A DNA stretch of 24,155 nucleotides from IMG/VR virus record IMGVR_UViG_3300047557_003836, positions 1 to 24,155 of that record; one strand, written 5' to 3'. This document shows, piece by piece, positions 3,654 to 24,155 of this stretch. Below the pieces are notes generated by a model. That model was not told the origin of the DNA. It ran no database searches and saw only the letters and a list, made by a program, of their open reading frames with translations. The number at the start of each line of letters is the position of its first letter. Position 1 is the stretch's first letter. This stretch comes from a virus. The position numbers and the translations under genes were made by a program.

Positions 3654-3675
3654 TTTATAATTCTACTTTTAGAAT

Positions 3676-3683: not shown

Positions 3684-3861
3684 CCAAAGATACAATACTA
3701 TTTTTTTGCATATATTCTTCCAACCCAAGATATAGTTTTACGTAACATTTGCAAATATTTCTAAGTAAATCAATATTTGTACAAGTATCAAGCTCTCTCG
3801 ATATTTTTTCATATTCAAATAACTTTGAATATGATTCAAGTTTTAATTCATCTGGATCCAT
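3679..3861 (-). CDS. Small helical protein of unknown function (60 aa)
   Basis: This 60-residue gene begins inside the end of the preceding small gene (14-base overlap) and ends just before the gp13 promoter. It is preceded by a good Shine-Dalgarno (AAGGA, 7 bases before the ATG), which supports the start. The protein is predicted to be two helices: residues 4-25 (DELKLESYSKLFEYEKISRE) and 30-51 (IDLLRNICKCYVKLYLGLEE). It has three cysteines (27, 37, 39). Similar small ORFs occur beside neck genes in T4-like cyanophages as far as I recall, but I know no function. Its size and helical-hairpin pattern vaguely resemble NblA phycobilisome-degradation proteins; this is weak. An adaptor or chaperone role in tail or neck assembly is equally possible from context. 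Confidence 0.75.
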   Translation of the reverse strand: MDPDELKLESYSKLFEYEKISRELDTCTNIDLLRNICKCYVKLYLGLEEYMQKNSIVSLE

Positions 3862-4078
3862 TAGAAATTCCTTTTAGTAAATTTTTAATCTCTTCTATAG
3901 AATCTTTTAAATAATCTAATTCTTTTTTAATAGATTCTATTTGATTTTTTTGAGATTTTCTAGACTCTACTGACCTATCATAATTAGATGCTGAAATAGA
4001 ATCTGTATTAATAATTGCATTTGTATCCAAATCCCTTACAAGATTTGGATACCCATCAACCTTTGCATATTTCTTCAT
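3848..4078 (-). CDS. Small coiled-coil protein of unknown function (76 aa)
   Basis: The ATG shares its A with the TAA stop of the DUF4815 gene (TAATG at 4080-4076), which points to stop-start translational coupling. The N-terminal part MKKYAKVDGYPNLVRDLDTN (residues 1-20) followed by AIINTD (21-26) looks like a compact conserved motif; I recall similar proteins in T4-like cyanophages. Residues about 42-70 (IESIKKELDYLKDSIEEIKN within it) form a clear coiled coil with hydrophobic heptad positions. It ends 14 bases inside the next small gene. Function is unknown; coupling to the giant structural protein suggests a chaperone, assembly factor or minor virion component. Confidence 0.8.
   Translation of the reverse strand: MKKYAKVDGYPNLVRDLDTNAIINTDSISASNYDRSVESRKSQKNQIESIKKELDYLKDSIEEIKNLLKGISNGSR
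3869..3873 (-). promoter_or_regulatory. Ribosome binding site of the 60-aa gene
   Basis: AAGGA on the minus strand, 7 bases before the ATG at 3861. It lies inside the coding end of the 76-residue gene and fixes the start of the overlapping 60-residue gene. It is one of only two clear Shine-Dalgarno sequences seen in the window. Confidence 0.55.
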
Positions 4079-7000: not shown

Positions 7001-10000
7001 TTATCTACAAAAAATCCAGATTTAAATCTATTTAAACCCTCAGAATCTGTCACTAGAAGACTTTCTGTAGATAGTTCCAGTAAAGAAAGTGAGGTATAAT
7101 ATTCTAAATCTACTATTCTCTTTTCAATTTCCCTTAAATCTGACATAGTATATCTTCTATTATCAGTTAAATCAATTTTTATATCTTTAGATACATCAAA
7201 AACATAAGCAGAGCTGGAAATAGTAGCTACATCAAGTACTTCTTTTGATATCTTTGGAACTACTGGTGATGTACTTGATTTTCCATAAACAATAGAAAAT
7301 GTTCCATCGGAAGATAAAGTTAGTTTATCTTTTCTTGGTAAGTAGAATGAATAATCAAATACTATTGATTCATTTGACTTTAATATTTGTGCAGATACAT
7401 TAGAACCAATATTAAAACTCCTCGATGTATAGTCAAATGGACTTATAGAACTTGATGTACTATAGTCGGAGACTCTTGGTCTAACATCTATTACATCAGT
7501 ATTTCTTACAGAATCATAATATGGTATTTTACTTCCATATAATTCTGATGGGTAACTATTTACTGTAATTAAATCACCACCATCAGTTGATTCAAATCTA
7601 AAGTAATCAAATACAATTTTTAATCTTCTAGATGGTTGCTTGGATGCTTCTTTTCTAATTAATCTACCAATATCATAAAATTGCTCTCTTTGACCATTAT
7701 CTAAAATAAATTCTGAAATAATATTCGAGTCTCCCTCGGATACACTTGTAATTGTAGCTTCTTTATTAGACTCTGTAAATGTTACATATTCATTAGCAAC
7801 AAATTTATTTGAATTTTTATATACAAATTCCACCACAGAAGAAGAAGGTGTTGATACACAAATAGCAACTGCCCCTGAAGTTTTTCCAATTGCAACCTCA
7901 CCAACAATAATATTTGATGTATTTAATCCTGATATTGTAATCGAAGGTAAAGTTGCATTATTGTTTGTTGATGATTCAAAAATACCGTGAACTTGAACTA
8001 TATCTGGATAATTTAAGCTAATATCAACATCTTCTACTCTAGTTCCATATACAGTACTGGTAGTTAATCCATTTGATGCAGTTGAGTATTTTGTTCTAGT
8101 TACATTAACTGTTTGACATCTTTGTAATTTTTTATATTTTGATGTCACATTAGATTTAATTAATGTAACTATGAGTCTAGCCGCAGATGCTGATGCTACG
8201 CTTAAATTATCAATTGTTCCAGATTTGCTACCTGTATTTAAATTGAATTTATCATCGGATAAAAATATATTGTTTCCACTATCATCAATTAAAACATAAT
8301 TTTCTTCATCAAATGAAGAGTACACAAAATCAGTATTTGATAGGTCTGGTAAAGTTAAAGAATTTGAAGTTATAGTAACGGTATACTCTTTTTTAACATA
8401 TACACTGGAATTTAATAGACTTATTTCTGAAATGTTTTTATTTTCTAACTCAGAATATAATGATGAATTTTGATTATTAAATGTCTCTGGTCTTAGTATT
8501 TTAATATTTTGTAGAGTAGTTGTTATTCCAACATTACCTGAACATACTAAAGAAACATTTGAAATTGACTTAACCGATACCGAAGTTTTTGTTGAATTTA
8601 TAGAAGTTACTTCTGTAAAGATTGGAACTGTTAATCCTACTCCAGAATAACTGATAATATCATTAACTAAAATTGAAGAAGCAAAATTTGTCCCATCTGA
8701 TTTTACAATAGTTGCATTAGAACCCGAAACCGTGATATTAAAAGGTCCAGTAATTGAAGATTCCTTGGATAAAACAGTATCCGCAGTAAAATCGGACAAA
8801 TCTGAAACTGCTTTAACATCATTTATAGAATAGTCAGATAAACTTGAAATTGTAGAAGTTGTAGATATTCCTGAAACAGTTAATGATTCATTTAATTGAA
8901 ATTGTCCAGAAATTTGATATAATGATAAAGATGTTCCTGAAACTGTTCTAACATAACCAGATGCACCACTATTATTACCTTGAACAAAACTACTAACGGT
9001 TATTCCAGGAATTGAAGAACTTAAAGTAATGTCAGTGAAAGTTTGAATGTCAAATAAGTATAAATTTGATTTACTTGCTGCATTTTCATATGATGTATTA
9101 TCATACTCAAAGTCATAAACCCTAGCATATCCTATACTTTTTGCACTTCCTACTGCTCCAGAGGTAAGTCTTGAATTATATAAAGTTACACTATAATTAG
9201 TTGATAAACCTATTTTTGGAGAACTTTTTAAATTATTAATTTTTAGAACATTACCAGATGTAAAAACGGAAGAAGAAGATTCTACAGATTTAGTTTCTCT
9301 TGGTTTCTGATAATCTAAAACAGTAGTTGAGGTTGGAACTTCATATCCCTTTACGTAAGATTTTCCTGGGGAAATCTTTAGTAATGCTAAATCATCTGAT
9401 GGAGTAGACCCACCTGAAGTTTTTTGATCTGATAGATATAATCCATTATTTCCAAGTCTATCATTTAGAGATTCTAATGATTCTATTGTATACTGATTTA
9501 AAGAATAATTTCCAGACTCATCATAAGTTCTTCTAGCTAAAATATCAGTTATGAATGAATATGGGTCATTTTTAATTATTTTCTTTAAGATTCCATTTTC
9601 TACTCTAAAGAGTTCTATAAAATCATCATCATAGAAATCATCTAAACTTTTTTTGGTTAAAGTTGCTTGTATTTTTAATCTGTCTGCCCCTGGTGCAGCA
9701 TAATTTGAGAATCCTTTAGCATTATCTACTAGGGAAGTATCATCATTTGAATCGATAATACTTTCTACTACGTTAAGACCAACTCGATAAGATGGAGTGT
9801 TTGAATATGGGTCTAATATTACTGTACTTGAATATACATTTACAAAATACCCCCTAATAAAATAGACACCAGATTCTATTTTGGCGCAAGAACCAACTGA
9901 AGTTGCTTTTCTAGTTTCTGGAGTCAAAACTCTGAATAAAGATGACCCAGCAGGATATAAAGTATTTGAAATTAATAAATCTTCTTCAATTACTAATTCT

Positions 10001-10449
10001 TCACCATCGATAAAAATTTCAGTTGAAAAGTCATCGGATGAAGAAGATTGATACTTTACAAATAAACAAACAGTATTTCTAGTCGATTCTACATCAGATT
10101 TCCTTAAAACATAGTCAACTTTAGCTGTTACATTTGTGGTTTTTCCTTTAAAAGTATATCCTACTACTTCATCTAGATAATCTTCTACTGATATTCCAGC
10201 AAAAATATCATCAACCTCTACACAATTAAATGTATTGTCATACGCATAATTACCTGGTATAACCATACCTCCTTGAGAGTATAAACTACTCCCAAATTTA
10301 TCAATTTGATTTTGTAAAGACGATTGCAAATTATTTAATTCTCTTGCCTGAATAGAGGTTCCTGGCTTAAAGAGAATTTTATAATAATTTTTTAAATCAT
10401 CAAAATCTGAATAATAAGGGTTTACATTTAAGTTAGTGCTTTGTGGCAT
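4078..10449 (-). CDS. Giant DUF4815-type virion structural protein (2123 aa), baseplate/tail-appendage candidate
   Basis: The protein has DUF4815 hallmarks. The N-terminus NPYYSDFDDLKNYYKILFKP and QARELNNLQSSLQNQIDKFG (residues about 10-53) is followed by the 'MVIPGN' motif. Mid-protein are 'DVRPRVSDY', then NRRYTMSDLREIEKRIVDLE with YYTSL (about 1090-1120), and DPLAQSFFV with SVDVYFQSKD and IPVTLQIRE (about 1494-1530). The C-terminal part (about 1985-2123) has SAYRHSSSDIRVLYKIFRND and ends SPIIKDLRVIALR. Between these lie many serine/threonine-rich beta-repeat segments, for example GEVAIGKTSGA, GETVRGYDTNG and IGDEIIKYTGTSTGQLTGI. DUF4815 proteins are large virion structural proteins of tailed phages; cyanophage annotations sometimes place them at gp9/gp10. 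Here the gene fills the place of T4 genes 9 to wac, suggesting a role in the outer baseplate or short fibres. The start is 1 base after the gp8 stop. Confidence 0.82.
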   Translation of the reverse strand: MPQSTNLNVNPYYSDFDDLKNYYKILFKPGTSIQARELNNLQSSLQNQIDKFGSSLYSQGGMVIPGNYAYDNTFNCVEVDDIFAGISVEDYLDEVVGYTFKGKTTNVTAKVDYVLRKSDVESTRNTVCLFVKYQSSSSDDFSTEIFIDGEELVIEEDLLISNTLYPAGSSLFRVLTPETRKATSVGSCAKIESGVYFIRGYFVNVYSSTVILDPYSNTPSYRVGLNVVESIIDSNDDTSLVDNAKGFSNYAAPGADRLKIQATLTKKSLDDFYDDDFIELFRVENGILKKIIKNDPYSFITDILARRTYDESGNYSLNQYTIESLESLNDRLGNNGLYLSDQKTSGGSTPSDDLALLKISPGKSYVKGYEVPTSTTVLDYQKPRETKSVESSSSVFTSGNVLKINNLKSSPKIGLSTNYSVTLYNSRLTSGAVGSAKSIGYARVYDFEYDNTSYENAASKSNLYLFDIQTFTDITLSSSIPGITVSSFVQGNNSGASGYVRTVSGTSLSLYQISGQFQLNESLTVSGISTTSTISSLSDYSINDVKAVSDLSDFTADTVLSKESSITGPFNITVSGSNATIVKSDGTNFASSILVNDIISYSGVGLTVPIFTEVTSINSTKTSVSVKSISNVSLVCSGNVGITTTLQNIKILRPETFNNQNSSLYSELENKNISEISLLNSSVYVKKEYTVTITSNSLTLPDLSNTDFVYSSFDEENYVLIDDSGNNIFLSDDKFNLNTGSKSGTIDNLSVASASAARLIVTLIKSNVTSKYKKLQRCQTVNVTRTKYSTASNGLTTSTVYGTRVEDVDISLNYPDIVQVHGIFESSTNNNATLPSITISGLNTSNIIVGEVAIGKTSGAVAICVSTPSSSVVEFVYKNSNKFVANEYVTFTESNKEATITSVSEGDSNIISEFILDNGQREQFYDIGRLIRKEASKQPSRRLKIVFDYFRFESTDGGDLITVNSYPSELYGSKIPYYDSVRNTDVIDVRPRVSDYSTSSSISPFDYTSRSFNIGSNVSAQILKSNESIVFDYSFYLPRKDKLTLSSDGTFSIVYGKSSTSPVVPKISKEVLDVATISSSAYVFDVSKDIKIDLTDNRRYTMSDLREIEKRIVDLEYYTSLSLLELSTESLLVTDSEGLNRFKSGFFVDNFGSYDTSNLDNESYSALIRNNTLSSPKTTERVDLTVGTLSNLKKTNQSITLDYIEVEYTKQAFASRIINVNPFNIVTWTGKLELSPYTDYWSINISEQENIADFSRRGTSETIVTRNSLPYIRSRNVKFTGTRLKPSTQFDFYFDSRNISSSSTNGNTYAFPKLLEITDVNGVFTVGETVRGYDTNGNTVSFKICSPNHKSGPIDNPTSTYTINPYQTNVGISTLYGTQSTILNVDVDSLQVSSESQYFGNITKGMKVYGSSSNASATISNLRLISDDNGSLVGSFFIPNPESSDIKYRTGNTTAKLTTSVTSSGTPGEVTSSAEATFTSSGQKVITTTIGYYDPLAQSFFVNEDNGIFPTSVDVYFQSKDSSIPVTLQIREVSSGIPGGPDKIVGTLEKVLNASDVKVSSDASVATTFTFDNLTRLEGNREYAIVLLSDSNSYNVWISRVGEVEISTANLPEIQKIIINKQPSLGSLFVSQNGSTWTPTQEDDLKFVIKKAKFSDKVGTCRLFNSTVSTKSLNNRLPKNPITVFSNSGESSYHNGRYILVTYPNHGMYSQNNQVSISGILPDSLPTKLTSNYDNSSTSSINITSGDESNFITFNGVAVSTDDPGYVLIGDEIIKYTGTSTGQLTGITRSQLGTNSVTHKSGSSVYKYEFSGVSLSRINKTFTSIVNPTIDRFYVQIDDDTLFTTTKTGGGDNAYCTKNIQFSKIDFDNNFITNYNNTEVSSSVRTVSSTSVNGTEVSFVDKGFETVGLSSITTFTDPRMICSRENELEYLSDSQFASNKSFTLDINLTTSDTNVSPIINLENSLVSLENNRINKPVSNYITDSRINLDTTEPNEFVYVSKTISLEESSSSLKVLLSAYRHSSSDIRVLYKIFRNDGADNTRNWILFPGYSNIDNNGNIINSSNNDGSSDVKVPESNLNQYRDYTFTADDISPFTSFAIKIIGTSTNQSYSPIIKDLRVIALR

Positions 10450-10450
10450 T

Positions 10451-12040
10451 TTAGAACTCTATAATAATTTTGATATCTTCTCTTTGATTTGATTGTCTTG
10501 TAATAGTGGACCTATTATCCACATACAATATATCACCACTCTTTATATTTATATCTGGATTTGATAGTCCATTAGTAAAGGACTGTCCCAAATAAACTCC
10601 TTGATATTGGTCTACAGTTGAACCAGAACCAATATCAACTACATTATAAGTAGTACTACTTATTCCTATAGTTACACTTGTATTATTGAAAGGTGAATAA
10701 GTATATGAAGATGATGTAGATAACCCAGTAAAATCTGGATTTAATATGAATGGGTCGAATGTCTTTAAAATTCCTTGTGATGGAGAAGAATAAGTATCTA
10801 CATAATTATCTCTTGGTTGAATATACTTGATAATAGTTACAGAACCAATCTCTTCAGAACTTACGATATTTCCTATTGCACCAGTAGATGATTGTCTAAT
10901 TATGGAATCATCTGTAATACTTAGACCAGTTGCATTAATTGCGATACCATGTACTCCAGAACCAGTACTTGATGTAAATAATGATGATGAACCAAATGCT
11001 CTTATATTTTTACTAATTCCTACTCTACAAAATTGATTTCCTACAATAAAATCTGGATTTGTGGATAGATTTTCTATTCTACTATAAACTAAACATCTAA
11101 ATGCCCCCAACTCTTTATAGAGGTCAAATCCATGTCCACCTTGTGGTGGAATGATAACTGTAAATATTGCCTTTTCAGAACTGCTATCTAAAGCAACTAC
11201 GGAATCTAAATCAAGAGTAGCATAAGTATAACCTGAACCTGGTGATGTTACTTCTGCTGATGTAACATTTCCCTCAGAATCAAATTTTACTAGTGCAATA
11301 CCACCTGTCCCATCACCCCTAATATTACAAGAAACTCCTAATTGAGGATTAGTTCCAACCAAATATTTACCACTTCTCTCTACTACTATTGCTCTTATAG
11401 AACCAGAAACTGCACTATCTCTAACTGCAACTATATCAGAAGAATTTGAAGTATTCCAATTATTTGGAACTGGAATATAATTTGTAGAATCAAATTTCAA
11501 ATAATCCGATGGACTAATAGAATACACATACTTCCAAATATATCCGTCTCCCCTATCTATATACTCACTTGGGTCAGTATGAGTTGGCTCTATTGTGGAA
11601 GGAACTCCTGATGGATTAGCATATCCAGATCCATTATAAATGCAAATATAAACTCTAAACTGACTATTGACTACGTAAAAATTGCTATCATATAATCTTG
11701 TTGTTCCGGAATTTGGTGTTAATTTATAGGGACTATAATCGTGCCTATACATATCATATTTTATTCCAGTAACCCACTGAACTTTTGGTATAGCTCTAAT
11801 AACCTCAGAGGAAGTTAATTTTTTAACACCTAATATACTTTCCTTATAAGAATCGGAATAATTAAAATTATCAATAGGATTTTGTACGTTACTATCCCAA
11901 GATACCCAATTAGTAGTTGGATTTGGATATCCAATAAATGTATAAAAACACTCTGAAGATGAAGATTCTGATGCAGAGATAGATTCTATAAAATTAGAAC
12001 AATTTTCTATCTTTAAATTGTCAGTTATTATTGCTGTCAT
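10451..12040 (-). CDS. 8: Baseplate wedge subunit (T4 gp8-like)
   Basis: This 529-residue protein (T4 gp8 is 334) is a baseplate wedge component that in T4 binds gp7 and gp10. Matches to T4 are spread along it: the N-terminal TAIITDNLKIENCSNFIESI, the FYTFIGYPNPTTNW block (T4 'IFITFGRSEPW'), VIRAIPKVQWVTG (T4 'MLDAVIPRRDWGDT'), YVVNSQFRVYICIYN, IEPTHTDPSEYIDRGDGYIW with KYVYSISPSDYL (T4 'GTIEPGDGYVWEYLFEIPP'), YIPVPNNW, and the C-terminal IKIIIEF (T4 'INILFTF'). Added length includes at least one beta-repeat (GNVTSAEVTSPGSGYTYA, about residues 255-275). A 26-base gap in front holds a late-promoter core. No near Shine-Dalgarno is visible. Confidence 0.88.
   Translation of the reverse strand: MTAIITDNLKIENCSNFIESISASESSSSECFYTFIGYPNPTTNWVSWDSNVQNPIDNFNYSDSYKESILGVKKLTSSEVIRAIPKVQWVTGIKYDMYRHDYSPYKLTPNSGTTRLYDSNFYVVNSQFRVYICIYNGSGYANPSGVPSTIEPTHTDPSEYIDRGDGYIWKYVYSISPSDYLKFDSTNYIPVPNNWNTSNSSDIVAVRDSAVSGSIRAIVVERSGKYLVGTNPQLGVSCNIRGDGTGGIALVKFDSEGNVTSAEVTSPGSGYTYATLDLDSVVALDSSSEKAIFTVIIPPQGGHGFDLYKELGAFRCLVYSRIENLSTNPDFIVGNQFCRVGISKNIRAFGSSSLFTSSTGSGVHGIAINATGLSITDDSIIRQSSTGAIGNIVSSEEIGSVTIIKYIQPRDNYVDTYSSPSQGILKTFDPFILNPDFTGLSTSSSYTYSPFNNTSVTIGISSTTYNVVDIGSGSTVDQYQGVYLGQSFTNGLSNPDINIKSGDILYVDNRSTITRQSNQREDIKIIIEF
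10546..10553 (-). promoter_or_regulatory. Candidate late promoter core (TATAAATA) inside gp8, before the DUF4815 gene
   Basis: The minus strand reads TATAAATA, the exact T4 late-promoter consensus, within the 3' end of the gp8 coding sequence and 96 bases before the DUF4815 gene ATG. It may give the 6.4-kb gene its own late transcript. The coding context (codons for INIK) and high AT content mean a chance match is possible. Confidence 0.35.
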
Positions 12041-12060: not shown

Positions 12061-12068
12061 TATTTATT
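12061..12068 (-). promoter_or_regulatory. Candidate T4-type late promoter core (AATAAATA) before gp8
   Basis: The minus strand reads AATAAATA, 20 bases before the gp8 ATG at 12040. Its first two bases belong to the TAA stop of the 901-residue gene (12069-12067), and the following in-frame TAA makes a double stop (TAATAA). The arrangement copies the site before gp13 almost exactly, which strengthens both calls. Confidence 0.5.
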
Positions 12069-14772
12069 ATATTTTTCTCCATATTCTAACTGTATAATTT
12101 CCAGTTGTTGCATTAGTTGCTGATGTAGATAATCCTATAGTACTAGAACCTATGGAAACAATTTTATAAGAAGAAGTGTAATCAGATTCTATATAATCAT
12201 TTACTTGAATTCCAGAAGTTGTAATTCCTAGAGATGTTGCATATGTAGTTGTAAAACCGGCAGTTAATGTTGCAACAGAGGTAAATCCAACATACTTAGA
12301 TGCTAAAGAATCTCTAGATTTGCTAATTAATTCACCACCTATGAATAAATCCTTTGATTGTGGAGTGAAATTTACAGGTCTATAAGTGAATGAATCATAT
12401 GATAGACCTTTATCATTATAAATTTCCGTATTAAGAGAATCTGAAGATACGATTTTCTTTACAGTCCTTATATTTTGATTATCTGGTAATTTAGATATAT
12501 TTTTCTCAACAACCAAGTTATCACCTACTTTTATTCTGGGATCTATATCGTATAAAAATGAATCCCCATCACTTCCCTCATAAAAATAAACTTTTAATGT
12601 ACTTCCAGTAGGAGGTGCCTCGCTCATTATAATCTGTGTTCCTCCATTAAAATAATATGATTCTTCTGGTACTTGAATAACGTCATTCAAAAAAACTAAA
12701 ACATTTTGAGAAATCTCTATATCAGATCCTGGTAAAGATTCTAAACTTAGCAATTGACCGTTTTCTTTTAAATTAAAGGATCTTCTTGTCCCATTTACTT
12801 CAGGACTTAAATCATCTAATTTTCTAAGTTTTCCTATATTCCAAGCAGAAAAAGTATCTTTTCCAACTGATAAAACTACTATTTCAAGTTTTTCAGAATC
12901 TATTTGAGTTGAATAACCAACTAAATTGGGTAAAGTCAAAACATCACCAGAACTATATCCATATCCAGGATTTGTGAACTTAAAATTGTCAATTTTACCA
13001 GAATCGGAAATCGTTAAATTTATTTTAGCACCAATTCCAGAAGTTACTCCAACTGGAGATAAGTTATCATATTCTAATGGTGGATCTATTTTAATTATTG
13101 GAGTGGAAATTCCAGTATAGGTGCAAGGTCCAACTATATTAATAGATGTTATATATCCAGATGATATTATAGCTGTTCCATATCCAGATATTCTAGTTCC
13201 ATTTTGTTCAAATGAAACTGATGTAGCATATCCAGGAGCATATCTATATCCTGAACCAGAATATGCTATTCCAATATTATCATTATTAATTGTATAAACT
13301 CCATCAGACTCTATTTTTGATGTTTCATACAAAACTGCAGATTTTAATGGTTGATAATTTGTTCCAGAAGATAAGGCATAACCAACTATTATTCCACCTC
13401 TAGGAAGTCCCTTTACATTAACATCATAACTTTTTGTTCCATCTCCAGTTGTTCCAATTCCTATAAAATTGAGAAAAGTTTTTCCACCTTCTTCAACAAA
13501 TGAAAATGATTCTTCAAATTCCGGATATTGAAAAATATTATTTACTAATACTATTCCGTTATCTGAGGATATTCCGGAAGTTGATAATCCAGAATACTTT
13601 AATTCAAATGAAGATGATATTCCATTAAATTGATTTGAAAAATCGTCAAAAACTTTATTACCATCGTAATTTGATCTTAAAAATACTCTACCATTAAATT
13701 TAGATCCAAAACTAAAATTGAAAAATGTCAAATCAAATGGTAACACTGGGGTTAATTGATCATATTGTCCAGTGGTCTTATCAAAAGAAATTTTAACTTC
13801 ATTTATTGCATCTTCATATGAATTTGCAAAACTAAAATTATTTTCATAATTTTTTATGGCAAAATAAACTTTATTGCTCTGTAGACCTAAAGGTGGATTT
13901 TGTGATACTAATAAAAGTCTAGATCCTGTTTTAATATCAGTATTAAACAAATTAAAAGAATCTGTACTATCAAAAACATCTGAAAGTGGGATTTTATATG
14001 TAAATCTTTTACCTTCAAATGGAGCATCTGTAAAATAAATTTTATCCTGAACAATATTATATTGACCATTCATTATAGTTGCATATTTTGTTGATGTAGA
14101 AAAGGGGACTAAAGGAGTACCCAATACAGTTACTCCTCTAAGTAAAGAAACTGTACCAACACCAACATTAGTATTTGAATATGAAATATTTGTAATTTTT
14201 GTCAATTCATTTCCAATTTTTAAAACAGTACCTACATTAATATTTGTTAAATCACTCAGAACAATATTTTGAGAATTGATATAAGTTACAATACCAACTG
14301 TATTTCCAGCAGAAAGAGGTGCCTGTATTATATTATCTAAAACTATTAAAGATCTAGAATTTTGTTTTTCTCCCTCAAATCCATGATTGTTACCTACTCC
14401 TAAACTTATTATATCTAAATTAGTCCCAGAAAGAGCCAAATTCTTGGTAAAGGAAAGTTTAATATTATTAGAATCTACTACTATTGCATATACTTCATCT
14501 GGCATAAATGAAGTTGAAATAGAATTTCCAGGACTTGTCGTAGATATTCCTAGTTTATTTCCAGATCGAGGAAATGTATATTTTAATTTTTCCCCAGTTT
14601 TGAAAAAGTGGTTTTCAATTAAAATACTGTTATTTAAGATATCAACTGTTTCACTAGAACTTCCATCAAATTTTTTATAAAAAACTGAATCACCTTTATG
14701 TTTTATTCTAAATGAAGATGAACCGAGAGTTGTTGGGATATATATCCCTCCTGATGAATTATTTAATGCCAT
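12067..14772 (-). CDS. Baseplate or fibre-like virion structural protein (901 aa)
   Basis: I do not recognise a T4 counterpart. It sits between the gp7-like gene and gp8, starting 3 bases after the stop of the former with a Shine-Dalgarno, so it is probably a baseplate or tail-appendage subunit. It is beta-rich with recurring segments. A 'V-L/F-x-N-x-I/V-I/F-Q-x-P' motif occurs three times: IVLDNIIQAP (143-152), IVLVNNIFQYP (407-417) and VLVFLNDVIQVP (691-702). The first and third are followed by I-Y/M-x-x-x-AP-x-x-G (YFTDAPFEG 246-254; IIMSEAPPTG 714-723), as in beta-sandwich repeats of phage fibres. Residues 54-67 (ENHFFKTGEKLKYT) and 94-107 (YAIVVDSNNIKLSF) form another repeat type, also found in the gp7-like protein. 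GSGY and GYGY turns occur at about 506-510 and 602-606. No signal peptide or enzyme motif is visible. Confidence 0.8.
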   Translation of the reverse strand: MALNNSSGGIYIPTTLGSSSFRIKHKGDSVFYKKFDGSSSETVDILNNSILIENHFFKTGEKLKYTFPRSGNKLGISTTSPGNSISTSFMPDEVYAIVVDSNNIKLSFTKNLALSGTNLDIISLGVGNNHGFEGEKQNSRSLIVLDNIIQAPLSAGNTVGIVTYINSQNIVLSDLTNINVGTVLKIGNELTKITNISYSNTNVGVGTVSLLRGVTVLGTPLVPFSTSTKYATIMNGQYNIVQDKIYFTDAPFEGKRFTYKIPLSDVFDSTDSFNLFNTDIKTGSRLLLVSQNPPLGLQSNKVYFAIKNYENNFSFANSYEDAINEVKISFDKTTGQYDQLTPVLPFDLTFFNFSFGSKFNGRVFLRSNYDGNKVFDDFSNQFNGISSSFELKYSGLSTSGISSDNGIVLVNNIFQYPEFEESFSFVEEGGKTFLNFIGIGTTGDGTKSYDVNVKGLPRGGIIVGYALSSGTNYQPLKSAVLYETSKIESDGVYTINNDNIGIAYSGSGYRYAPGYATSVSFEQNGTRISGYGTAIISSGYITSINIVGPCTYTGISTPIIKIDPPLEYDNLSPVGVTSGIGAKINLTISDSGKIDNFKFTNPGYGYSSGDVLTLPNLVGYSTQIDSEKLEIVVLSVGKDTFSAWNIGKLRKLDDLSPEVNGTRRSFNLKENGQLLSLESLPGSDIEISQNVLVFLNDVIQVPEESYYFNGGTQIIMSEAPPTGSTLKVYFYEGSDGDSFLYDIDPRIKVGDNLVVEKNISKLPDNQNIRTVKKIVSSDSLNTEIYNDKGLSYDSFTYRPVNFTPQSKDLFIGGELISKSRDSLASKYVGFTSVATLTAGFTTTYATSLGITTSGIQVNDYIESDYTSSYKIVSIGSSTIGLSTSATNATTGNYTVRIWRKI

Positions 14773-14775
14773 GGT

Positions 14776-17700
14776 TTATCCTAGTATTGGATTCGTTGAA
14801 CGTAATATACTCTTTTTATAGAATTTTATATCGTAAGTTGCCAGTTCATTTGGATAATATATTAGTGAATAAGTTCCAGCTGGCTCATCGTATATTGTTT
14901 GAAAATTTAAATCATCATAATTTCCAATAATTCCATAACTAATATTATTTAAATACTTCTCTTGACCTTGAATTACGTTGTAATGAATTGAATTTAATTG
15001 TATAATATTAAATGTTGTAGTGACACCTACAGTTTTTTTAACTTCAATTACAAATTTACTTGCCGCATATTCATTTGAAAAAGTGTTTATTCCAACAGCA
15101 TTTAAATTACTATTTGTAAATTGTACTCTAGAACTATTTAATAAACCTTGTTCTAAATTAATTGTTGATGGGGAAGTAACTGTATTTACCAATAAAGAAG
15201 CATTAATATAAAGGTATGTATTAGTATTAGGTATTGAACTATAACCTATTGCAATATTATTTCCATTAGTAGATATCCCAACGGTTCCTAAATTTTTTAT
15301 CTCAGTATCTGAGTATAAATTTGATATTAATGTTTGACCATTATATACAAAAGATAATTCAATAAATTCAGAAATATGTCCATTTGTAGTGCCAACTCCA
15401 ACATAAACGGTCCCAGAATTACAAGAATCTTTTGATATTAAATCAACATATATTGTAGATGGGGAAGGATTTGAAGCATAAGAAGTTGTGATTCCAATAT
15501 TTCTTACATTTCCATAATTAGATTCCACAGTAGAAGTGTCTAAAGGTACTATATCACTTATTAATTTTGAAGAATAGATGTTATTAATATTGAAAGGTAT
15601 AAATTGAAGAATAACCTGTGTCGAATCTTCAGGATCTACTTGCGAATAAAAGGATCCAATAGGTATATCCTCAAAATAGGAATAAGAAATGATATTTACA
15701 TCGTTTCCATTTCTAGATAAGTACAACTCGGCAAATAATGGAAGTTCAAAATCAGTATATAAAGAAGTGGTTCCTTCTATAAAAATTAAATATTTTGATA
15801 TAAAACTACCACTACCATAAGATGGTAATATATCAATATCTAATGCTGCAAAAGCAGCATCATTATCAAAACTTGAAGAAATATCGTCAATCGATAAAAC
15901 TCTATTTTCTTTAGATAGAAGGTAGTCACTTAATTTGATAGTATTGAAGGTTAATGTTTCGGAATATAAATTGTCATTTTCATCAACATCTTCTAATACC
16001 AAATCAATATTATTAATTGTATTAACATTTACATAAGAGTCGAGAGATACATTTACTACAGACGAATCTTCAGTAGTTATAGTACTAACTCCAACTGATT
16101 CTATTTCCAAATCACTGAATTTTTTAAATCCAGATATATGAGCTAAATCTGAAACTGGAGATTCCCACTTTTTAATTTCCTTTGAACTCTTTAGTGAGTA
16201 TGAAAAATACTGATAATAATCACTATCTTGTATCTTTTGGAGATTTGAAGAAATATATCCTCTATCTTCTAAAGAACCCAATTCTTTTGAAAAACTTTCT
16301 GATAATTTAAACTTTGCTGTATTTTTATCTATTTTTACTATAGTTCCCTCTGAATTTGATTTATCTCCTTTAATTTGTTCATTTATTGATAATAAAGTAT
16401 CGTCATAAACATTTACTACAGAAGTAAGTTTCCCACCATCTTTGTTATTAACTATATTTGTGTTTTCAATAACTTCATTAGGATAAAATTCATTAACTGC
16501 CATGGTTACTTTTGCTGATGGCATATTCTTTGAATTTATAACATAGGCAAAATCGTAAGAAACTACAGAACCTGGGTCTTTGTTTAAATTATATCTGACA
16601 ATTGATTGATTTGGACTTGAATATGAAGTGACTATTCCGACAACATCAAAGTAATTGTATGAATAATATTCGGAATTAAACCCATTTCCTACAGACTGTA
16701 TTCCTTCTACGAAAATTTTATCACCAATTTCAAATGGTAATGAATTTGTTGTGGTAAATCCTACAGATGGTGTTTCTAATCTTAAAGAAACTGTAAATAT
16801 TCCCGGAGATGTTTCTTGTTTTGTTGCCTCTAATATTTTGATACCATTTGTATTTTCAACAAATACTATTTTATTTCCATTTTCGGGAATACCAAATCCA
16901 CTATTAGCAATAATGACACTATCTACACAACCATTCTTTAATTCTGTAAAACCAGTAAAACTCTGATAGATTAAATTAGTATTCTGATTATACAGTTTAA
17001 TTTTAGGAGCACTTAAATAATTTGAACCTCCATTAATTAGTTGAATATTTTTAACTTTATAATTATCTTTTAGATATAGTGAAGAGTATAATTTTGAATT
17101 TGGTTTAAGAGTTCTATCTGATGGGTATATATTTCCAACTACTGGAGATATTTTTGTAATTTTGCCAATATTATTAGAATATGGATATAATTTTGCATCA
17201 GAACCACTATTTCCTATGGAAACTACAACTGGTAATTTTTTATAATTTTCACCTTTAAATATCATTCTTGTAGACTTAATAGGACCAGAAATAGCAGAAG
17301 AATTTACTGAATATGATAATATAGTGCTACCAATAGAAGCATAATAATTTTTTTCTGGGAAATTAGGTAAATTAATTGAAAAATTACTAGTAGAAACACC
17401 AACAATAGTTGACTGTATATTATAAAGACTTGGTAAAATTTCGATAACATTATGCTTTGCTATTGAAGTATCAATATTCACTTCCTTTGTATTTGATACT
17501 ATATTGTAGTAAAGTGTTGATGGAGTTTCTGAGTTTATATTTAATGTTAATTTATCATTAGTCTTTACGACTTCATTAACAGTATTACCCACTCCAAGGT
17601 ATTCATTTTCAAAAAATTCATCTCTATATAATTTAAATTCCGTTCCAGATAAAGTAGATGAAGATAAATTAAATTCTACTTTTTCATTTCTGTAAACTTT

Positions 17701-20700
17701 TAAATTTGGATTTGTGGATGAATTTACCAGCAATCTAGATGATGCTGATGAATATGAAACAGTAAATGATGTTGTATTTCCAACAACTGCAGATAAAGTT
17801 ACAACATCATTTACAGATAAGTTATGACTTTCATTAGTATATACTGTAGTATCATTAAATTGAATATTTCCTTTAACTAAATTTCTCTTAGTTTTAAGTT
17901 GATGTAGGTTTCCAGAACCAGATGATGGATAATATATTAAATTATCTAGACTTTTAACACTCTTCTTATCATTTGTCAATCCTATAATATCATTACCTAA
18001 ATCTACAACATAAAGAGGATTTATATTTTCCAGAAAATCTCCACCATCTATTGTGGTTACAATTTGAGTACAATCATCTCCAATTTCATAATCAACCTCT
18101 TCACCAGAAACAAATTTATGACCTGGCATCCATATTCCGCCAGTTCTTACATATTTTGATTCTGTTATTCCTACACCTAAAGGTCTTCTGTATAGAGTAT
18201 TTCCATTACCTGGAGTTGTTCCTACTCCGACTGAAATCAGATTGGATTCAAAATAATAAACTTCATCATTAACTAATGTGTCCTTAATTTCAGAATTAGA
18301 AAATGTAAATTTATTTTGTAATAAATTTACATCAGATTGAGATGAGTGGGATGAGGATGTATTACCTCTCTTTACATTTATTTGATTATTTTTATTATTA
18401 AATCCAATAATTGTAAGTGTCTCACCGCCTACCTGCAATTTCTCATTTATATTAAATTTTGTAATAGAGTCTCTAATTTCTATAGATGTTACTAATCCAA
18501 CATTAGAAGGTAATGCCTTTGTAAGTTTTGTTGTTACGGTTTCAAAATTAATTCTTTCAAATCCTTCTAAACCTGAATATTTTGATGTGGATATTCCGGA
18601 TATTTTTACATAATAATTATCCTTTAAGTTTAAAGGAACTGATGATATTCCAATAATTGTATTTTTATTATTAAGAAATGTTATGTTATTATAACTTGTT
18701 GAACTTGATGCTATTGAACTGATTCCAACACCTTCAAGTTCAGAAATAATAGATTTTGCACCATATCCAGAAGTTCCTGTGTTATCAAATATTACTTCAT
18801 CTCCTATGTAATAACCAGTTCCAGGATAAATGACATCTAATCCATCAATATTTCCAACTTGAGTGTTTAATACAATAAAATCTTCCTTTTCTATTGATGG
18901 ATAAAAATCAAAAAATTCATAATATTCTTCTTTATCCTCAACATAATATGGATATGTATGTTTAATAATATCTAATTCATTTAAGTCTATATCTTGATTG
19001 TAAGTGGAATAAAAATTCTCCTCTACTGGTTCATACTTATAATTTTCACCTATGAAAAATGGATATGATGAAGTAGAAAAATATGCATAAACTCCATTTG
19101 GAAACTCTGGAGTTTTACAATATCTACCATTAAATTCGTCTAGTGTTCCAAGACCTTTTTCATATACATAATCTTCTATACAATCTAAGTTAATAGAATT
19201 TGATACAGAAGGTGATACTCTAGTATTTCTATAACTACTGGTCATTCTTATTATATTTCCAGTTCCATCTACATTTGCATATGCAAATGGACCATAAATT
19301 GGACATCCATCATAAGCCCAACCTATAATTGGTGAATGGGTTGTTGAATTAATTCCAATAGAAGATGATAAAGAATTTGTTAGATAATATATTCCAATTT
19401 GAGATTTTCCGGAATAATTTGAACTAACTAATATTCCAGAATTAATCTGAGAAGAACTATACTTACTGACTTCATTAATAGTAAATGTATTTAAATTTGA
19501 TTTTAGGAAAGCTCCAGTACCAACTTCTATAACTTCTAAAGTTGTATACTGGTCGTATCCAACACCACCATTAATTAATTTAACATCAGTAATTACGCCA
19601 TTAGAAATTATTGGAGTAAGAATGGCACCCGTTCCTTTTCCATTTACTTTTATTTCTACATTATTGTAATAACCACTTCCACCAGATAATACAATTACAT
19701 CTACTAATTTACCTGAAAATACTAGAGGTTTTAATGTGCAAGATGTTCCTTTTTGAAGGGTAATGGTTGGTCCATTCTCTACATTTAAGAATGTATTTCC
19801 GTAAGTTAGAGAATTAAAGCATCTAACATCATAAATTTCACCTAATACAATTGGTTTAATTTCTGCAGAATAACCAATTGTAGAAATTCCTAAAGTTGTT
19901 AATTTGCCAGAAATTTCTACCCTTAGTGGTGAATATCTTAAAGAAAATACAGAAGAACTTTGTAAAGTTCCAAAATCTATGTTTACTTCAGATCCAGTTA
20001 AAGTTTTGTTTGTATATAATTTAATGCTATCCTTATCAAGTACTTTTATATAATAGTATGAAGTGGTATTAATGCCAGTTAAAGTTTCCCCATCATACTG
20101 ATATACAACCTCCTCTCCATCCTTAAATCCGTGATTTTCTAAGGTGATTATATTATCGTACTTATTAATATGTGTAGTTTTAAATGGAATAACCTTATGA
20201 TCAACTATACCACCATTATCAATAACGTTTATTCTATCTACTACATTTACATATTTTTCAGTTGTAAATTTCTGAATACCAGTTCCTCTAGTTCTTAAAT
20301 TAATGGTATTAATACCAGAAATAGCATCAGAATAAGTTGAATATAAACTAAATGATGTCCCAGAACCTACATTAGAAATATAATAAACTCCATTATTTAA
20401 TAAAAATCCATCTTGAACTTCTGTTCCAATTCCTATCGGAGAATTTCCTTGTGTACTATAAATTAACGCATCTCCAGGAACAAGTCGATGGGAATAACCA
20501 AAAATAATCTTGTCTACTCCATCAAGAGTATTAACAACTGAACTATCTCCTGCATTAAAAGAAAATTCTTTTTGAATTTTCTTCATTTTAGTCGATACTT
20601 TTATATTATTATTGTTGCCACCCCTAACTTCAACTATAGGTTCTTCAACATAATCATAACCTGGGTCAGTTACAAGAATTTTTTGGAGGTATCCCTTTAA

Positions 20701-23019
20701 AGATACATAGGTTTTTGTAGTTGTATCTTGACCGTTATTTACTAAAATTTTTGGTGGATTTAGTAAATCATAATTACTTCCACCATTTAGTACATCAATT
20801 GAGGTAATCTCTCCGTAATAGATTTTATCAAAAGATTTTACATTTTGAATTTCTGTTCCATTATATAAAACTCCAATAGAACCAGGAAGTGTTTTATATT
20901 TTTTTGTTGGTATTTTAACTTGCTTTGGAAGTTTTTTAAATAATTTTAATGGATAAAGATTTTTTCTATAAATTGAAGTTAAAGATAATCTAATAGTTGT
21001 AATTGCAGCACCTACAGTATTTGTAGGAGATGCTTCTGCAAAATTAATATATCTACCTTGAATTAAATCATTTCGAGTATAGCAAAGTTTAATCTGGTCA
21101 GAATCTATTTTTTTGACATATAACTGGAGACCTGTTTGAATTCCAGCTTTATTTGTAAAAGTAAAATTACTTGCAAAAACAGTTGAGGAATATCCAACAA
21201 CAGAAACAATCTCACCATCATAAAAATTATGAAGACCAATAAATGATGATGAAATACCGGAATTTGAATTTAAAGATAAATCAAAGTTAAATTCTTTTTT
21301 ATATGGATTTATCGTTCCACTTGGGAAACCATTAGATGTAAGATAATAATTATCATCATCTTCATAAGATGATTGAATATCAATTAAATATCTGCCATTT
21401 ATATCGGGATAATTAGTGGATGTTGATGTTTTTACAACTCTTCTAAATTTAATCCTATGATTTACTGTTAAATTTGATGAGTCGGAAATACTGAAAGAAT
21501 AATTGCTTTGATTATTAACGTTACTTACAGTGGCTGTATATATTTTTTGGTTTGTAGTTAAACTAAAAACCTCTACAAAATCTCCATTCTTAAGATAGTT
21601 TGGATATTTTGTTCTAACTAATCCAGTACTTTTATCTATTCCATATTTTTCACTTGGAAGTGTATTATAAACAGTTCCACCAACTATAGATGTTGGTACA
21701 TTATATGATAAAGAATTTGTGAATACATTAGGTGAAGTAATTCCAATATTATCAATTTTTAAGAAATCATATTCAGAAGCTAGTTTAGTATTGTTAGAAT
21801 CAATATTTGATAATGTATTTAAAATTCTAAATTTAACTATTGAACCGTCTGCTTTTTGTGAATAGACATAATTTGTTCCAAAAACAATAGATGCATTTGG
21901 AATTGAAGAAGATATTCCAATACAACCTATAAACTCTGTGTCAGTTTTGTCAGTATAATTTATAGTAATTCCATTTACAATAATGGATCCAGATTGTTCG
22001 AACCCAATAGTAGATACTACTCTAATTGTATCTGAGCCCGAAGATACATCACTAATTACATATGTTTTTGGTGTAATTTTAAATTGACCAAAAATTGAGC
22101 CTTTTGGATTTAAGTTATTAGAGTATCCAGAAAAAATATCAATATTATAATATTGGTCGTAATTTTTTGAGAATGAAGATACTTCATATATTGAACCATT
22201 TGCCTCTAAAATGGTCCCAGAAGAGTTCTTATCTTGGTATAAGGTCTGACCCTTTAAATTATTAGGATTGCCCTCTATAAGTTGTCCTATAAACCTCTCA
22301 ACGACAATCCATTTTGAGTCTGAAGGAGTAGCAACAAAGTCTTTTGGTTTAATTACTTCAACTTTTTCTCCATACAAAACTTTGAATAAAATTTTAAATG
22401 CTTCTTCTGTACCCTTTGACTTATAAAAATCTTTTGCTTTACTTATGAAATTTGGAGCATTAATTCTTGAATCGAAATCAATATTTTCAAATCCTGGAGT
22501 AAATTGATACTTAATTTTTCTAAAAAATTCAAGTAAGAATAAATTACTGAGATTTTTTACAATTGATCCATTAGAATGCTCATCTACCTCACTAGATGAA
22601 AATTTTAAGAATCCTGGATTATTTTCATCAGATAAAGTTTCGACTCCACTAAACCCCCTAATGCAACCTGTGAATGAAGTGGAAGTAATTCCAGTATAAC
22701 TGATAATTTCGTTATCAATCTGAAGCAAACCATATTGATTTGGCCAACCAGAGGTTGATGCAACATTAATTACATCATCAAAGAAAGATGCCTCAGATGT
22801 TAAAGTAGTTGATGTAGTAAGACCAATAGAATCAAAAGAATCTATATTTTTATAAGAAACTAAATTTTCAGCAAGGTCAATTGTTGACCCCTGATATTCT
22901 TGAGAAACATAATATTGCTTTAAGAATTCAGAAAAATTTGGATTTTCTGACAGAATAAATTCTGGTATTTGACTATCAATAATGTCACTAATTTTTACTA
23001 CTTTCTTATCTTGATTCAT
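14776..23019 (-). CDS. Giant baseplate wedge-type protein in gp7 position, with YHYH domain (2747 aa)
   Basis: It directly follows gp6, where T4 has gp7 (1032 residues), the wedge initiator. The N-terminus has IPEFILSENPNFSEFLKQYY (about 18-37) and FYKSKGTEEAFKILFKVLYG (about 196-215), a start shared by many phage tail structural proteins. Near residues 2262-2303 is the matching end motif, with DSDYYQYFSYSLKSS, SPVSDLAHISGF and KKFSDL. Between them, about 1230-1325 is a YHYH domain: HSPIIGWAYDGCPIYGPFAY (W at 1234), TLDEFNGRYCKTPEFPNG and VYAYFSTSSYPFFIG. Around these lie many small beta repeats: GGSGY 1113-1117, GGVGY 1151-1155, and ENHGFKDGEEVVYQYDGE near 963 with YYIKVLDKDSIKLY after it. 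The C-terminus is SILRSTNPILG. The frame is open throughout. In T4-like cyanophages the YHYH protein after gp6 is taken as the gp7 equivalent; sequence similarity to T4 gp7 itself is not visible to me. Confidence 0.82.
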   Translation of the reverse strand: MNQDKKVVKISDIIDSQIPEFILSENPNFSEFLKQYYVSQEYQGSTIDLAENLVSYKNIDSFDSIGLTTSTTLTSEASFFDDVINVASTSGWPNQYGLLQIDNEIISYTGITSTSFTGCIRGFSGVETLSDENNPGFLKFSSSEVDEHSNGSIVKNLSNLFLLEFFRKIKYQFTPGFENIDFDSRINAPNFISKAKDFYKSKGTEEAFKILFKVLYGEKVEVIKPKDFVATPSDSKWIVVERFIGQLIEGNPNNLKGQTLYQDKNSSGTILEANGSIYEVSSFSKNYDQYYNIDIFSGYSNNLNPKGSIFGQFKITPKTYVISDVSSGSDTIRVVSTIGFEQSGSIIVNGITINYTDKTDTEFIGCIGISSSIPNASIVFGTNYVYSQKADGSIVKFRILNTLSNIDSNNTKLASEYDFLKIDNIGITSPNVFTNSLSYNVPTSIVGGTVYNTLPSEKYGIDKSTGLVRTKYPNYLKNGDFVEVFSLTTNQKIYTATVSNVNNQSNYSFSISDSSNLTVNHRIKFRRVVKTSTSTNYPDINGRYLIDIQSSYEDDDNYYLTSNGFPSGTINPYKKEFNFDLSLNSNSGISSSFIGLHNFYDGEIVSVVGYSSTVFASNFTFTNKAGIQTGLQLYVKKIDSDQIKLCYTRNDLIQGRYINFAEASPTNTVGAAITTIRLSLTSIYRKNLYPLKLFKKLPKQVKIPTKKYKTLPGSIGVLYNGTEIQNVKSFDKIYYGEITSIDVLNGGSNYDLLNPPKILVNNGQDTTTKTYVSLKGYLQKILVTDPGYDYVEEPIVEVRGGNNNNIKVSTKMKKIQKEFSFNAGDSSVVNTLDGVDKIIFGYSHRLVPGDALIYSTQGNSPIGIGTEVQDGFLLNNGVYYISNVGSGTSFSLYSTYSDAISGINTINLRTRGTGIQKFTTEKYVNVVDRINVIDNGGIVDHKVIPFKTTHINKYDNIITLENHGFKDGEEVVYQYDGETLTGINTTSYYYIKVLDKDSIKLYTNKTLTGSEVNIDFGTLQSSSVFSLRYSPLRVEISGKLTTLGISTIGYSAEIKPIVLGEIYDVRCFNSLTYGNTFLNVENGPTITLQKGTSCTLKPLVFSGKLVDVIVLSGGSGYYNNVEIKVNGKGTGAILTPIISNGVITDVKLINGGVGYDQYTTLEVIEVGTGAFLKSNLNTFTINEVSKYSSSQINSGILVSSNYSGKSQIGIYYLTNSLSSSIGINSTTHSPIIGWAYDGCPIYGPFAYANVDGTGNIIRMTSSYRNTRVSPSVSNSINLDCIEDYVYEKGLGTLDEFNGRYCKTPEFPNGVYAYFSTSSYPFFIGENYKYEPVEENFYSTYNQDIDLNELDIIKHTYPYYVEDKEEYYEFFDFYPSIEKEDFIVLNTQVGNIDGLDVIYPGTGYYIGDEVIFDNTGTSGYGAKSIISELEGVGISSIASSSTSYNNITFLNNKNTIIGISSVPLNLKDNYYVKISGISTSKYSGLEGFERINFETVTTKLTKALPSNVGLVTSIEIRDSITKFNINEKLQVGGETLTIIGFNNKNNQINVKRGNTSSSHSSQSDVNLLQNKFTFSNSEIKDTLVNDEVYYFESNLISVGVGTTPGNGNTLYRRPLGVGITESKYVRTGGIWMPGHKFVSGEEVDYEIGDDCTQIVTTIDGGDFLENINPLYVVDLGNDIIGLTNDKKSVKSLDNLIYYPSSGSGNLHQLKTKRNLVKGNIQFNDTTVYTNESHNLSVNDVVTLSAVVGNTTSFTVSYSSASSRLLVNSSTNPNLKVYRNEKVEFNLSSSTLSGTEFKLYRDEFFENEYLGVGNTVNEVVKTNDKLTLNINSETPSTLYYNIVSNTKEVNIDTSIAKHNVIEILPSLYNIQSTIVGVSTSNFSINLPNFPEKNYYASIGSTILSYSVNSSAISGPIKSTRMIFKGENYKKLPVVVSIGNSGSDAKLYPYSNNIGKITKISPVVGNIYPSDRTLKPNSKLYSSLYLKDNYKVKNIQLINGGSNYLSAPKIKLYNQNTNLIYQSFTGFTELKNGCVDSVIIANSGFGIPENGNKIVFVENTNGIKILEATKQETSPGIFTVSLRLETPSVGFTTTNSLPFEIGDKIFVEGIQSVGNGFNSEYYSYNYFDVVGIVTSYSSPNQSIVRYNLNKDPGSVVSYDFAYVINSKNMPSAKVTMAVNEFYPNEVIENTNIVNNKDGGKLTSVVNVYDDTLLSINEQIKGDKSNSEGTIVKIDKNTAKFKLSESFSKELGSLEDRGYISSNLQKIQDSDYYQYFSYSLKSSKEIKKWESPVSDLAHISGFKKFSDLEIESVGVSTITTEDSSVVNVSLDSYVNVNTINNIDLVLEDVDENDNLYSETLTFNTIKLSDYLLSKENRVLSIDDISSSFDNDAAFAALDIDILPSYGSGSFISKYLIFIEGTTSLYTDFELPLFAELYLSRNGNDVNIISYSYFEDIPIGSFYSQVDPEDSTQVILQFIPFNINNIYSSKLISDIVPLDTSTVESNYGNVRNIGITTSYASNPSPSTIYVDLISKDSCNSGTVYVGVGTTNGHISEFIELSFVYNGQTLISNLYSDTEIKNLGTVGISTNGNNIAIGYSSIPNTNTYLYINASLLVNTVTSPSTINLEQGLLNSSRVQFTNSNLNAVGINTFSNEYAASKFVIEVKKTVGVTTTFNIIQLNSIHYNVIQGQEKYLNNISYGIIGNYDDLNFQTIYDEPAGTYSLIYYPNELATYDIKFYKKSILRSTNPILG
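14778..14782 (-). promoter_or_regulatory. Ribosome binding site of the 901-aa gene
   Basis: AGGAT on the minus strand, 5 bases before the ATG at 14772. Its last base overlaps the first base of the upstream TAA stop (14778-14776), so termination and re-initiation happen at nearly the same place, a typical coupled junction. Confidence 0.5.
19495..19707 (-). repeat. Two-copy beta-repeat in the gp7-like protein
   Basis: This encodes residues about 1105-1175. Two adjacent units share the plan 'V/I-x-D-V-x-L-x-x-GG-x-GY ... G-x-G-A': VDVIVLSGGSGYYNNVEIKV then ITDVKLINGGVGYDQYTTLE, each followed by GTGA. It is the same repeat family as the array in gp14. Further diverged copies occur near residues 742-790 (NGGSNY, DPGYDY) and elsewhere in this protein (YPGTGY, NGGSNY). 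Confidence 0.7.
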
Positions 23020-23020
23020 T

Positions 23021-24155
23021 TTAGTTTCTTATCTTTGTGTCTATAGTATAGCTTGATTCTGGTAAAAATACACTTCCCGAAGAATTTTCTCCTGAGGATA
23101 TTAAATCCTTAAGTATTTCTACTTGACTTGCACCAACATCAAATTTTAAATATATTGATTTTTTAGCAATAATATCATTTGAGTATGGAGTAGCTTCAAT
23201 TTCAATCACGTTATTTGGTTTTTCAGTTGAAACTACATTTATATTATCTATATTAACAATTCCATTAGTATAATCAACCTTTCCAACAGCATTTACTTCT
23301 ACTTTAATTTCATTTTTATCTAATGAAAATAAGAAAAGATTTCCATAATTATTATCTACAGGAACATCAGATAAGTAAAGTGTTCTTGGATTATCTTTAA
23401 TTTTAAATCCAGTAGTTCTAATGTTATATCCAGAAGATGACCTATAAAATCTATTTTCAAAACAAATAAAATAATTTGCTGCTTGATTTACGGTTCCTAT
23501 ATTTCTTCTTATTTTAACTTTTGTTATATTTGATGTTATAGCATTATTGGTAGAATCAATTAATCCAATAACTTTACTGTACTTAAATCTTCCCCCAAAC
23601 TTATTTAAATCTGTGGAGTTTGAATAAGAATTTAGTGAATTAATTACTTGAGTTTTTAAATCACTTTCCGAATTAATTAAATTGGAATTAAAGTAAACAG
23701 AAGATTCTATTTCGACATAAAGAACCTCGATATCAATAAAGTTGACTTTAATTCCGGCACTAGAATATTGCTTTAATTTATTCAGAATTACATCTTTAGT
23801 TGACTGTGATAAGTAATCTGAATTTTTTGGTTTTATTGCCAGGAAAACGTTACCATATTGAGGTGGGGATAATTCCTCTCCACCATAAGCAGTTACAGAT
23901 TCTATGTTGGGGAAAACTGATGGCAAAAGTGCTTCATAATCTGCTGCAGTTACAGCTCTATACTGAGAAGAATATACTCTAGGAGCATAGTATCTGACAG
24001 ATTCTGCAGATTGAATATCATCTCCATTTGATGCTATAGTGTTTGTAACAATTATACTAGCATTTCCACTTAAATTTGAGTTTGTATTTGATACTATATT
24101 TCCAGAAAAACTAAAGTTTGATGGACCATTACCACCTTTTCCATCAGTGGTAATG
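23021..24155 (-). CDS. 6: Baseplate wedge subunit gp6-like, C-terminal part (5' end outside window)
   Basis: The frame is open from the window edge to a TAA at 23023-23021, giving about 377 residues of what in T4 is a 660-residue protein. gp6 forms the backbone of the baseplate wedge (Baseplate_J-like). The visible part has the segment SAESVRYYAPRVYSSQYRAV with TAADYEALL, the usual conserved Baseplate_J core with 'APR...RAVT..DYE'. It continues PSVFPNIESVTAYGGEELSP, and later VNFIDIEVLYVEIESSVYFN and FGGRFKYSKVIGLID. The C-terminus has GKVDYTNGIVNIDNI and ends SYTIDTKIRN. There is no ATG in the visible frame that would be the true start; the TTG at 23926 is internal, since the conserved motif lies upstream of it. 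One base separates its stop from the ATG of the giant gp7-like gene. Confidence 0.88.
   Translation of the reverse strand, partial: ITTDGKGGNGPSNFSFSGNIVSNTNSNLSGNASIIVTNTIASNGDDIQSAESVRYYAPRVYSSQYRAVTAADYEALLPSVFPNIESVTAYGGEELSPPQYGNVFLAIKPKNSDYLSQSTKDVILNKLKQYSSAGIKVNFIDIEVLYVEIESSVYFNSNLINSESDLKTQVINSLNSYSNSTDLNKFGGRFKYSKVIGLIDSTNNAITSNITKVKIRRNIGTVNQAANYFICFENRFYRSSSGYNIRTTGFKIKDNPRTLYLSDVPVDNNYGNLFLFSLDKNEIKVEVNAVGKVDYTNGIVNIDNINVVSTEKPNNVIEIEATPYSNDIIAKKSIYLKFDVGASQVEILKDLISSGENSSGSVFLPESSYTIDTKIRN

Follow-up and report, generated by a model that had tools for sequence, protein, structure and literature searches.

A giant gp7 ortholog built on a two-block wedge scaffold in a T4-like, cyanophage-type virus

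The 2,747-residue protein encoded in a 24,155-base IMG/VR fragment (the whole stretch analysed here, hereafter the window) is in our estimate, at a probability of about 0.88, a true gp7 ortholog of a T4-like, cyanophage-type virus that has been expanded by insertion; the direction of growth is something that we infer. Homology links its two end blocks with the scaffold of short gp7 proteins and with residues ~646–759 of T4 gp7, and, weakly by sequence, with residues 865–892.

The giant gene and its neighbours

Every larger gene in the window is on the minus strand. These genes are the end of gp6, the giant, a 901-residue ORF (gp7b), gp8, a DUF4815 protein, and neck and terminase-small-subunit genes; four of them are set out here:

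23021–24154, minus strand: gp6, C-terminal part (context); phrog_219, E 5e-94; Pfam Gp6_C-I and C-III, both under cut-off
14776–23019, minus strand: giant gp7 ortholog, 2,747 aa; phrog_2885 "baseplate wedge subunit", E 0; matches T4 gp7 724–758 by sequence
10451–12040, minus strand: gp8 (context); PF09215, E 6.5e-9; phrog_438, E 1e-133
4078–10449, minus strand: VrlC-position protein, 2,123 aa, DUF4815 (context); PF16075, E 1.6e-56

The gene order is gp6, gp7, gp8, with gp7b sitting between gp7 and gp8. At the loci of relatives, gp6 lies directly upstream of gp7 in all 140 cases and gp8 lies downstream in 76 of 79. A megablast of the window against phage records gave no match, and in tblastn the annotated cyanophage giants share ~28–34% identity with the window protein. 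The Pfam family PF23786 (Baseplate_wedge; curated cut-off 27 bits) scores 21.1 bits on the whole giant and 27.1 bits on residues 1–250 alone. The phage tail domain TIGR02242 reaches only 12.4 bits in the window, under its cut-off of 51.85, and is likewise under it on gp7 of phiM12 (25.6 bits, E 1e-5). The name gp7 is not new for the giant, since many database records say gp7 or baseplate wedge initiator; an account of the expanded gp7 scaffold was not found in the open-licence literature searched.

Conserved end blocks and their counterparts

A preliminary description of this DNA had drawn attention to two pairs of motifs, described as the start and end of much shorter tail proteins. Both pairs are present, FYKSKGTE at residues 198–205 with LFKVLYGE at 211–218, and YYQYFSYSLKSS at 2268–2279 with HISGFKKF at 2294–2301, although the positions first given were 1 to 6 residues off. 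The spacing of about 2,000 residues (198–218 versus 2268–2301) was as described, and 446 residues follow the second pair where roughly 450 had been reported. The motifs belong to a scaffold in three parts:

22834–23019, minus strand: scaffold part 1, N-terminal helices, residues 1–62; profile match to the first 58 short-ortholog columns, E 4e-16
22285–22557, minus strand: scaffold part 2, N block, residues 155–245, with the KGTE motif at 198–218; T4 gp7 724–758, E 7e-4; PF23786 columns 179–223
16093–16296, minus strand: scaffold part 3, C block, residues 2242–2309, SYxLKS..HxxGxKxF motif; short-ortholog profile E ~1e-25; T4 gp7 counterpart 865–892

Helices are modelled in part 1 at residues 10–17, 20–25, 27–41 and 49–54. 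Profile comparison of short orthologs with giants gave E ~1e-19 for the N block (~130 columns) and ~1e-25 for the C block (65 columns), while the next-best match of the C block anywhere else in the giant had an E of only 0.09, and neither motif can therefore be put down to chance.

Searching with one profile per block recovered 153 ORFs, from cyanophages, T4-type phages and uncultured viruses, in which the two blocks follow each other in order, 73–2,229 residues apart. The gap is under 120 residues in 10 of these ORFs, 120–300 in 12, 300–600 in 54, 600–1000 in 19, 1400–1700 in two, 1700–2000 in seven and 2000–2300 in 49. The N block was seen without the C block in 38 ORFs, 37 of which run off a contig end, the last being the frame-broken gene of S-SKS1; no uninterrupted ORF with the N block but without the C block was found. 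The set led by S-SM2 was retrieved with N-terminal residues 1–1002 only, so the presence of the C block in every ORF of that set uncut by a contig end, S-SKS1 excepted, was not selected for. Seven giant N blocks, once aligned, proved too diverse to serve in the locus search. In the S-SKS1 record (L012, HQ633071.1, 9965–22357) gp7 is split into ORFs of different frames, and in two other loci (L095, N block at 1425; L084, N block at 294) a long extension precedes the scaffold, as in T4 gp7.

Much shorter proteins do hold both motifs. Natural orthologs of ~390–630 residues, including many IMG/VR ORFs, carry both blocks, among them pf16 gp212 (523 aa), IME-SM1 gp109 (503 aa), Ochrobactrum phage OC p050 (631 aa) and the IMG/VR ORF L015 (449 aa). 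Pieces of the giant also match three PHROG families at two places each, at columns 84–135 and 379–459 of phrog_26741 (497 columns), 80–138 and 676–758 of phrog_17744 (765 columns), and 4–208 and 721–773 of phrog_3465 (978 columns), and in PF23786 (284 columns) the N block (163–223) and the C block (233–280) are ~10 columns apart. The short forms represented by pf16 gp212, IME-SM1 gp109, OC p050, PF23786 and phrog_26741 resemble the window protein in having both end blocks, with gp6 upstream, and differ from it in having 73–254 residues between the blocks rather than ~2,000. Family phrog_3465 is labelled "head closure Hc2" yet matches both gp7 ends. In another locus, L006:4091-5974 and the next gene are both labelled "T4-like gp7"; the former is more likely gp6, because it is located between gp25 and gp7.

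T4 gp7 (1032 aa; PDB 5IV5 and 5HX2, with the Klebsiella phage KP1-type 9F4A) has both blocks in the same order and lies between gp6 and gp8, but it has ~640 residues ahead of the scaffold helices, only ~86 (domain V) between the blocks, and no match to module A, B or C or the YHYH domain of the giant (see below). A single-sequence search with the giant reached T4 gp7 724–758 at E 7e-4, and the short-form profile matched it at E 6e-9 and 6e-8 over 646–759, with a weak second match at 865–892, which places the two blocks on either side of Pfam domain V (766–861). A structural comparison with T4 gp7 had also been proposed. Models were made of L015 (449 residues; pLDDT 67, pTM 0.40) and of window residues 1–620 (pLDDT 65, pTM 0.35), and for each the top-ranking solved structure is T4-type gp7. 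In Foldseek the sole three matches of the L015 model below 0.001 are T4-type gp7 (4e-12, 6e-11 and 5e-10), followed more weakly by baseplate chains of XM1, a Streptomyces contractile system and phi812, and T4-type gp7 ranks first for the window model (E 7e-5). Both models run from N-terminal helices through KGT helices to strands that follow one another in the same order, the window having module C between the helices. The fold match is a local one (3Di); since the models do not predict how domains are oriented, TM-scores are low, and the high rmsd indicates that domain orientations are not reproduced. Searching solved structures with the C block and its surroundings gave chance matches only.

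Could the motifs instead be short and convergent, and the giant an unrelated adhesin at the gp7 position? By sequence the C block alone is only weakly similar to T4 gp7 (E 5e-4, probability 31%), and a published survey found T4 gp7 absent from cyano- and pelagimyophages, with VrlC in its place (PMC7029224); another study lists gp7 only in the non-cyanophage core (PMC3037559). However, convergence would have to account for blocks of ~130 and 65 columns matching at E 1e-19 and 1e-25, for their identical order in 153 ORFs, for the same neighbours in 140/140 and 76/79 loci, and for the top rank of T4 gp7 among solved structures with either model. The window holds both a VrlC-position protein and gp7. 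We regard the adhesin reading as nearly refuted and the giant as a gp7.

Similar small wedge proteins are found further afield. XM1 gp17, of 242 residues, is described as the ortholog of T4 gp7 and has a spike-binding loop (80–106) inside its scaffold domain (PMC10457771). Like the window protein, XM1 gp17, P2 gpI and other small gp7-type wedge proteins adjoin a gp6 homolog, and P2 gpI has the KGT motif; they differ in their size (176–242 aa), in being without the large insert and in their weak sequence link. The link to P2 gpI amounts to a weak in-register match in the N-half (E 0.0017), with none in the C-half, and a claim, from sequence alone, that the C block is homologous to P2 gpI was rejected. 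In AlgoCIS, compared by published description only, the gp7-like part of Alg12 is fused to a gp6-like part, and this is another system.

Insertion zones, repeated modules and gp7b

The preliminary description pictured one insertion between the ends. The insert of 2,000 residues is there; growth is seen in three zones rather than one, however, and numerous repeats had correctly been noted, modules A, B and C recurring in profile self-comparison (the basis of all module rows below with nucleotide positions):

22558–22833, minus strand: insertion zone 1, residues 63–154, a stretch of ~92 residues without counterpart in short orthologs
Residues 67–121, in insertion zone 1 between scaffold helices: module C copy 1, a beta module in the model
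16303–22284, minus strand: insertion zone 2, the large insert, residues 246–2239; gap of 73–2229 aa across orthologs
22114–22314, minus strand: domain V-like beta domain, residues 236–302, at the start of the large insert; strand order as in L015; hhalign 82%
21919–22077, minus strand: module C copy 2, residues 315–367
21040–21309, minus strand: module A copy 1, residues 571–660
20644–20823, minus strand: module B copy 1, residues 733–792
20317–20586, minus strand: module A copy 2, residues 812–901
19984–20175, minus strand: module A copy 3, residues 949–1012; weak Pfam E1_FCCH match at 961–1002
19549–19716, minus strand: module B copy 2, residues 1102–1157
18985–19473, minus strand: YHYH-family domain, residues ~1183–1345; PF14240, E 2.5e-25; alignment with cellular homologs
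17935–18156, minus strand: module A copy 4, residues 1622–1695
17470–17703, minus strand: module A copy 5, residues 1773–1850
17116–17289, minus strand: module B copy 3, residues 1911–1968
16882–17064, minus strand: module B copy 4, residues 1986–2046
14779–16092, minus strand: insertion zone 3, first part, residues 2310–2747; 438 aa past the C block
12067–14772, minus strand: gp7b, 901 aa, a gene of its own that continues the C-terminal extension; phrog_2885 columns 3536–3869, E 1e-132

The large insert thus contains module A five times, B four times and C once, together with the YHYH-family domain. Module C copy 1 is homologous to residues 318–371 (E 2e-14). At the start of the insert, a short-form domain V profile found no match in giants with HMMER, and hhalign gave 82% probability for domain V next to the N block, with two other places scoring similarly; because of this null result and non-unique match, continuity of domain V rests on the modelled strand order. 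The YHYH domain described earlier belongs to its family (PF14240, 90 bits against a cut-off of 25, best stretch 1220–1322) but has lost the residues that give it its name: the window and the five further phage copies in the alignment all have other residues in place of the tetrapeptide, while HSPIIGWAYDGxPIYG is retained. Cellular homologs (Bacteroidota, Verrucomicrobia, others) have the tetrapeptide. Seven genome-contig YHYH matches titled as bacterial or archaeal MAGs (L209, L210, L212, L214, L215, L216, L224) were excluded, being probable phage DNA in bins because their ORFs (1,131–1,502 aa) resemble cyanophage gp7.

Modules B and C and the YHYH domain occur in 58 of 58 giants and module A in 56; module B is found in 53 of 85 mid-sized forms, and no A, B, C or YHYH was found in the 10 shortest. 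Elsewhere in the window, module A occurs once in gp7b and module B weakly in gp8. A neck-type ORF (1451–2821, minus strand, 456 aa; PHROG head closure Hc2) has about three repeats of module B, similar to those of gp7.

Past the C block, the chains of phiM12 and ME01 end after 16–47 residues. The annotated cyanophage giants of phrog_2885 (P-SSM2, 5195 aa; Sf-CH8, 4878 aa; S-SM2, 4156 aa) have the same scaffold, module set and YHYH domain and are colinear with the window protein over ~2,700 residues, but in them the gp7b part is fused, whereas in the window it is a separate gene, colinear with the stretch of S-SM2 gp7 that starts at about residue 2990. That gp7 and gp7b share a frame, with only TAA and one codon between them, and form one ORF in S-SM2 and likewise in P-SSM2, might suggest a sequencing error or programmed stop readthrough, the real product being one chain of ~3,650 residues. 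We consider this very improbable, as 11 related contigs in which the junction is visible, some of them near-identical, keep the split, the stop-to-ATG spacing ranges from none to more than 10 bases with varying frame, and AGGA stands shortly ahead of the gp7b ATG in the window. Fission is the simpler account of gp7b, because an end-block tree (built by a quick method from 143 columns, with many forks left unresolved) puts the clade of the window next to P-SSM2 and Sf-CH8, both fused.

Direction of growth and possible role

The origin first suggested, insertion of domains into a small ancestral scaffold, is supported by the short orthologs, while its direction is read from small outgroup proteins and has no firm root. 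The reverse, that ancestral gp7 was large and the short forms lost their middle, seems unlikely to us. Gp7 size classes change 7 times on the scaffold tree, which is poorly resolved and whose T4 rooting depends on a long branch, and because several changes are needed some shortening is possible. Yet the smallest forms, such as XM1 gp17 and PF23786, come from diverse systems, the 10 shortest forms have no remnants of the modules or the YHYH domain, and the giants have one module set in common and nearly all group together on the scaffold tree. Close relatives also show insertions into modules: in L186 and L190 (residues ~110–200) module C copy 1 is interrupted by an extra ~77–88 residues between ...DEIITYTG and FTGCIRG. 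On the favoured reading of growth, insertions would have entered scaffold loops, modules A and B would then have been duplicated, and gp7b would later have split off in the window's clade.

T4 (PMC3004832), XM1 (PMC10457771) and AlgoCIS (PMC8894135) are the basis for placing the scaffold with gp6 and the inserts at the periphery, binding fibres or spikes. By analogy with these and with related contractile systems, the wedge may hold the scaffold blocks paired to two gp6 chains, in the core bundle and trifurcation, and the insert and extension could project to the baseplate periphery, carrying or replacing peripheral wedge and receptor-contact parts. Host contact is a possible role for the insert. 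S-PM2d081, a "hypothetical protein" with early mutations in Synechococcus coexistence cultures (PMC9910659), is a giant gp7 of 3,048 aa by the block test (L229:4531-13677; N block 149–240, C block 1805–1869, YHYH 720–871), and these mutations are consistent with a host-contact role of gp7. A tentative proposal, to which we give slightly less than even odds, is that cyanophage-type gp7 is a growth platform, in which a small scaffold with three zones had beta-modules duplicated and cellular domains captured, taking over peripheral functions that in T4 are spread over several proteins.

These results support and delimit the gp7 of cyanomyophages, so that scaffold boundaries are available for wedge modelling; the published claim of gp7-less cyanomyophages should be revised, and the S-PM2d081 of PMC9910659 can be re-read as gp7. 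The range of gp7 sizes, from 500 to 5,200 residues, offers a testable case of growth by insertion and module duplication, in which the conserved ends locate the scaffold of the giant and show a way in which a protein of this size could have arisen.
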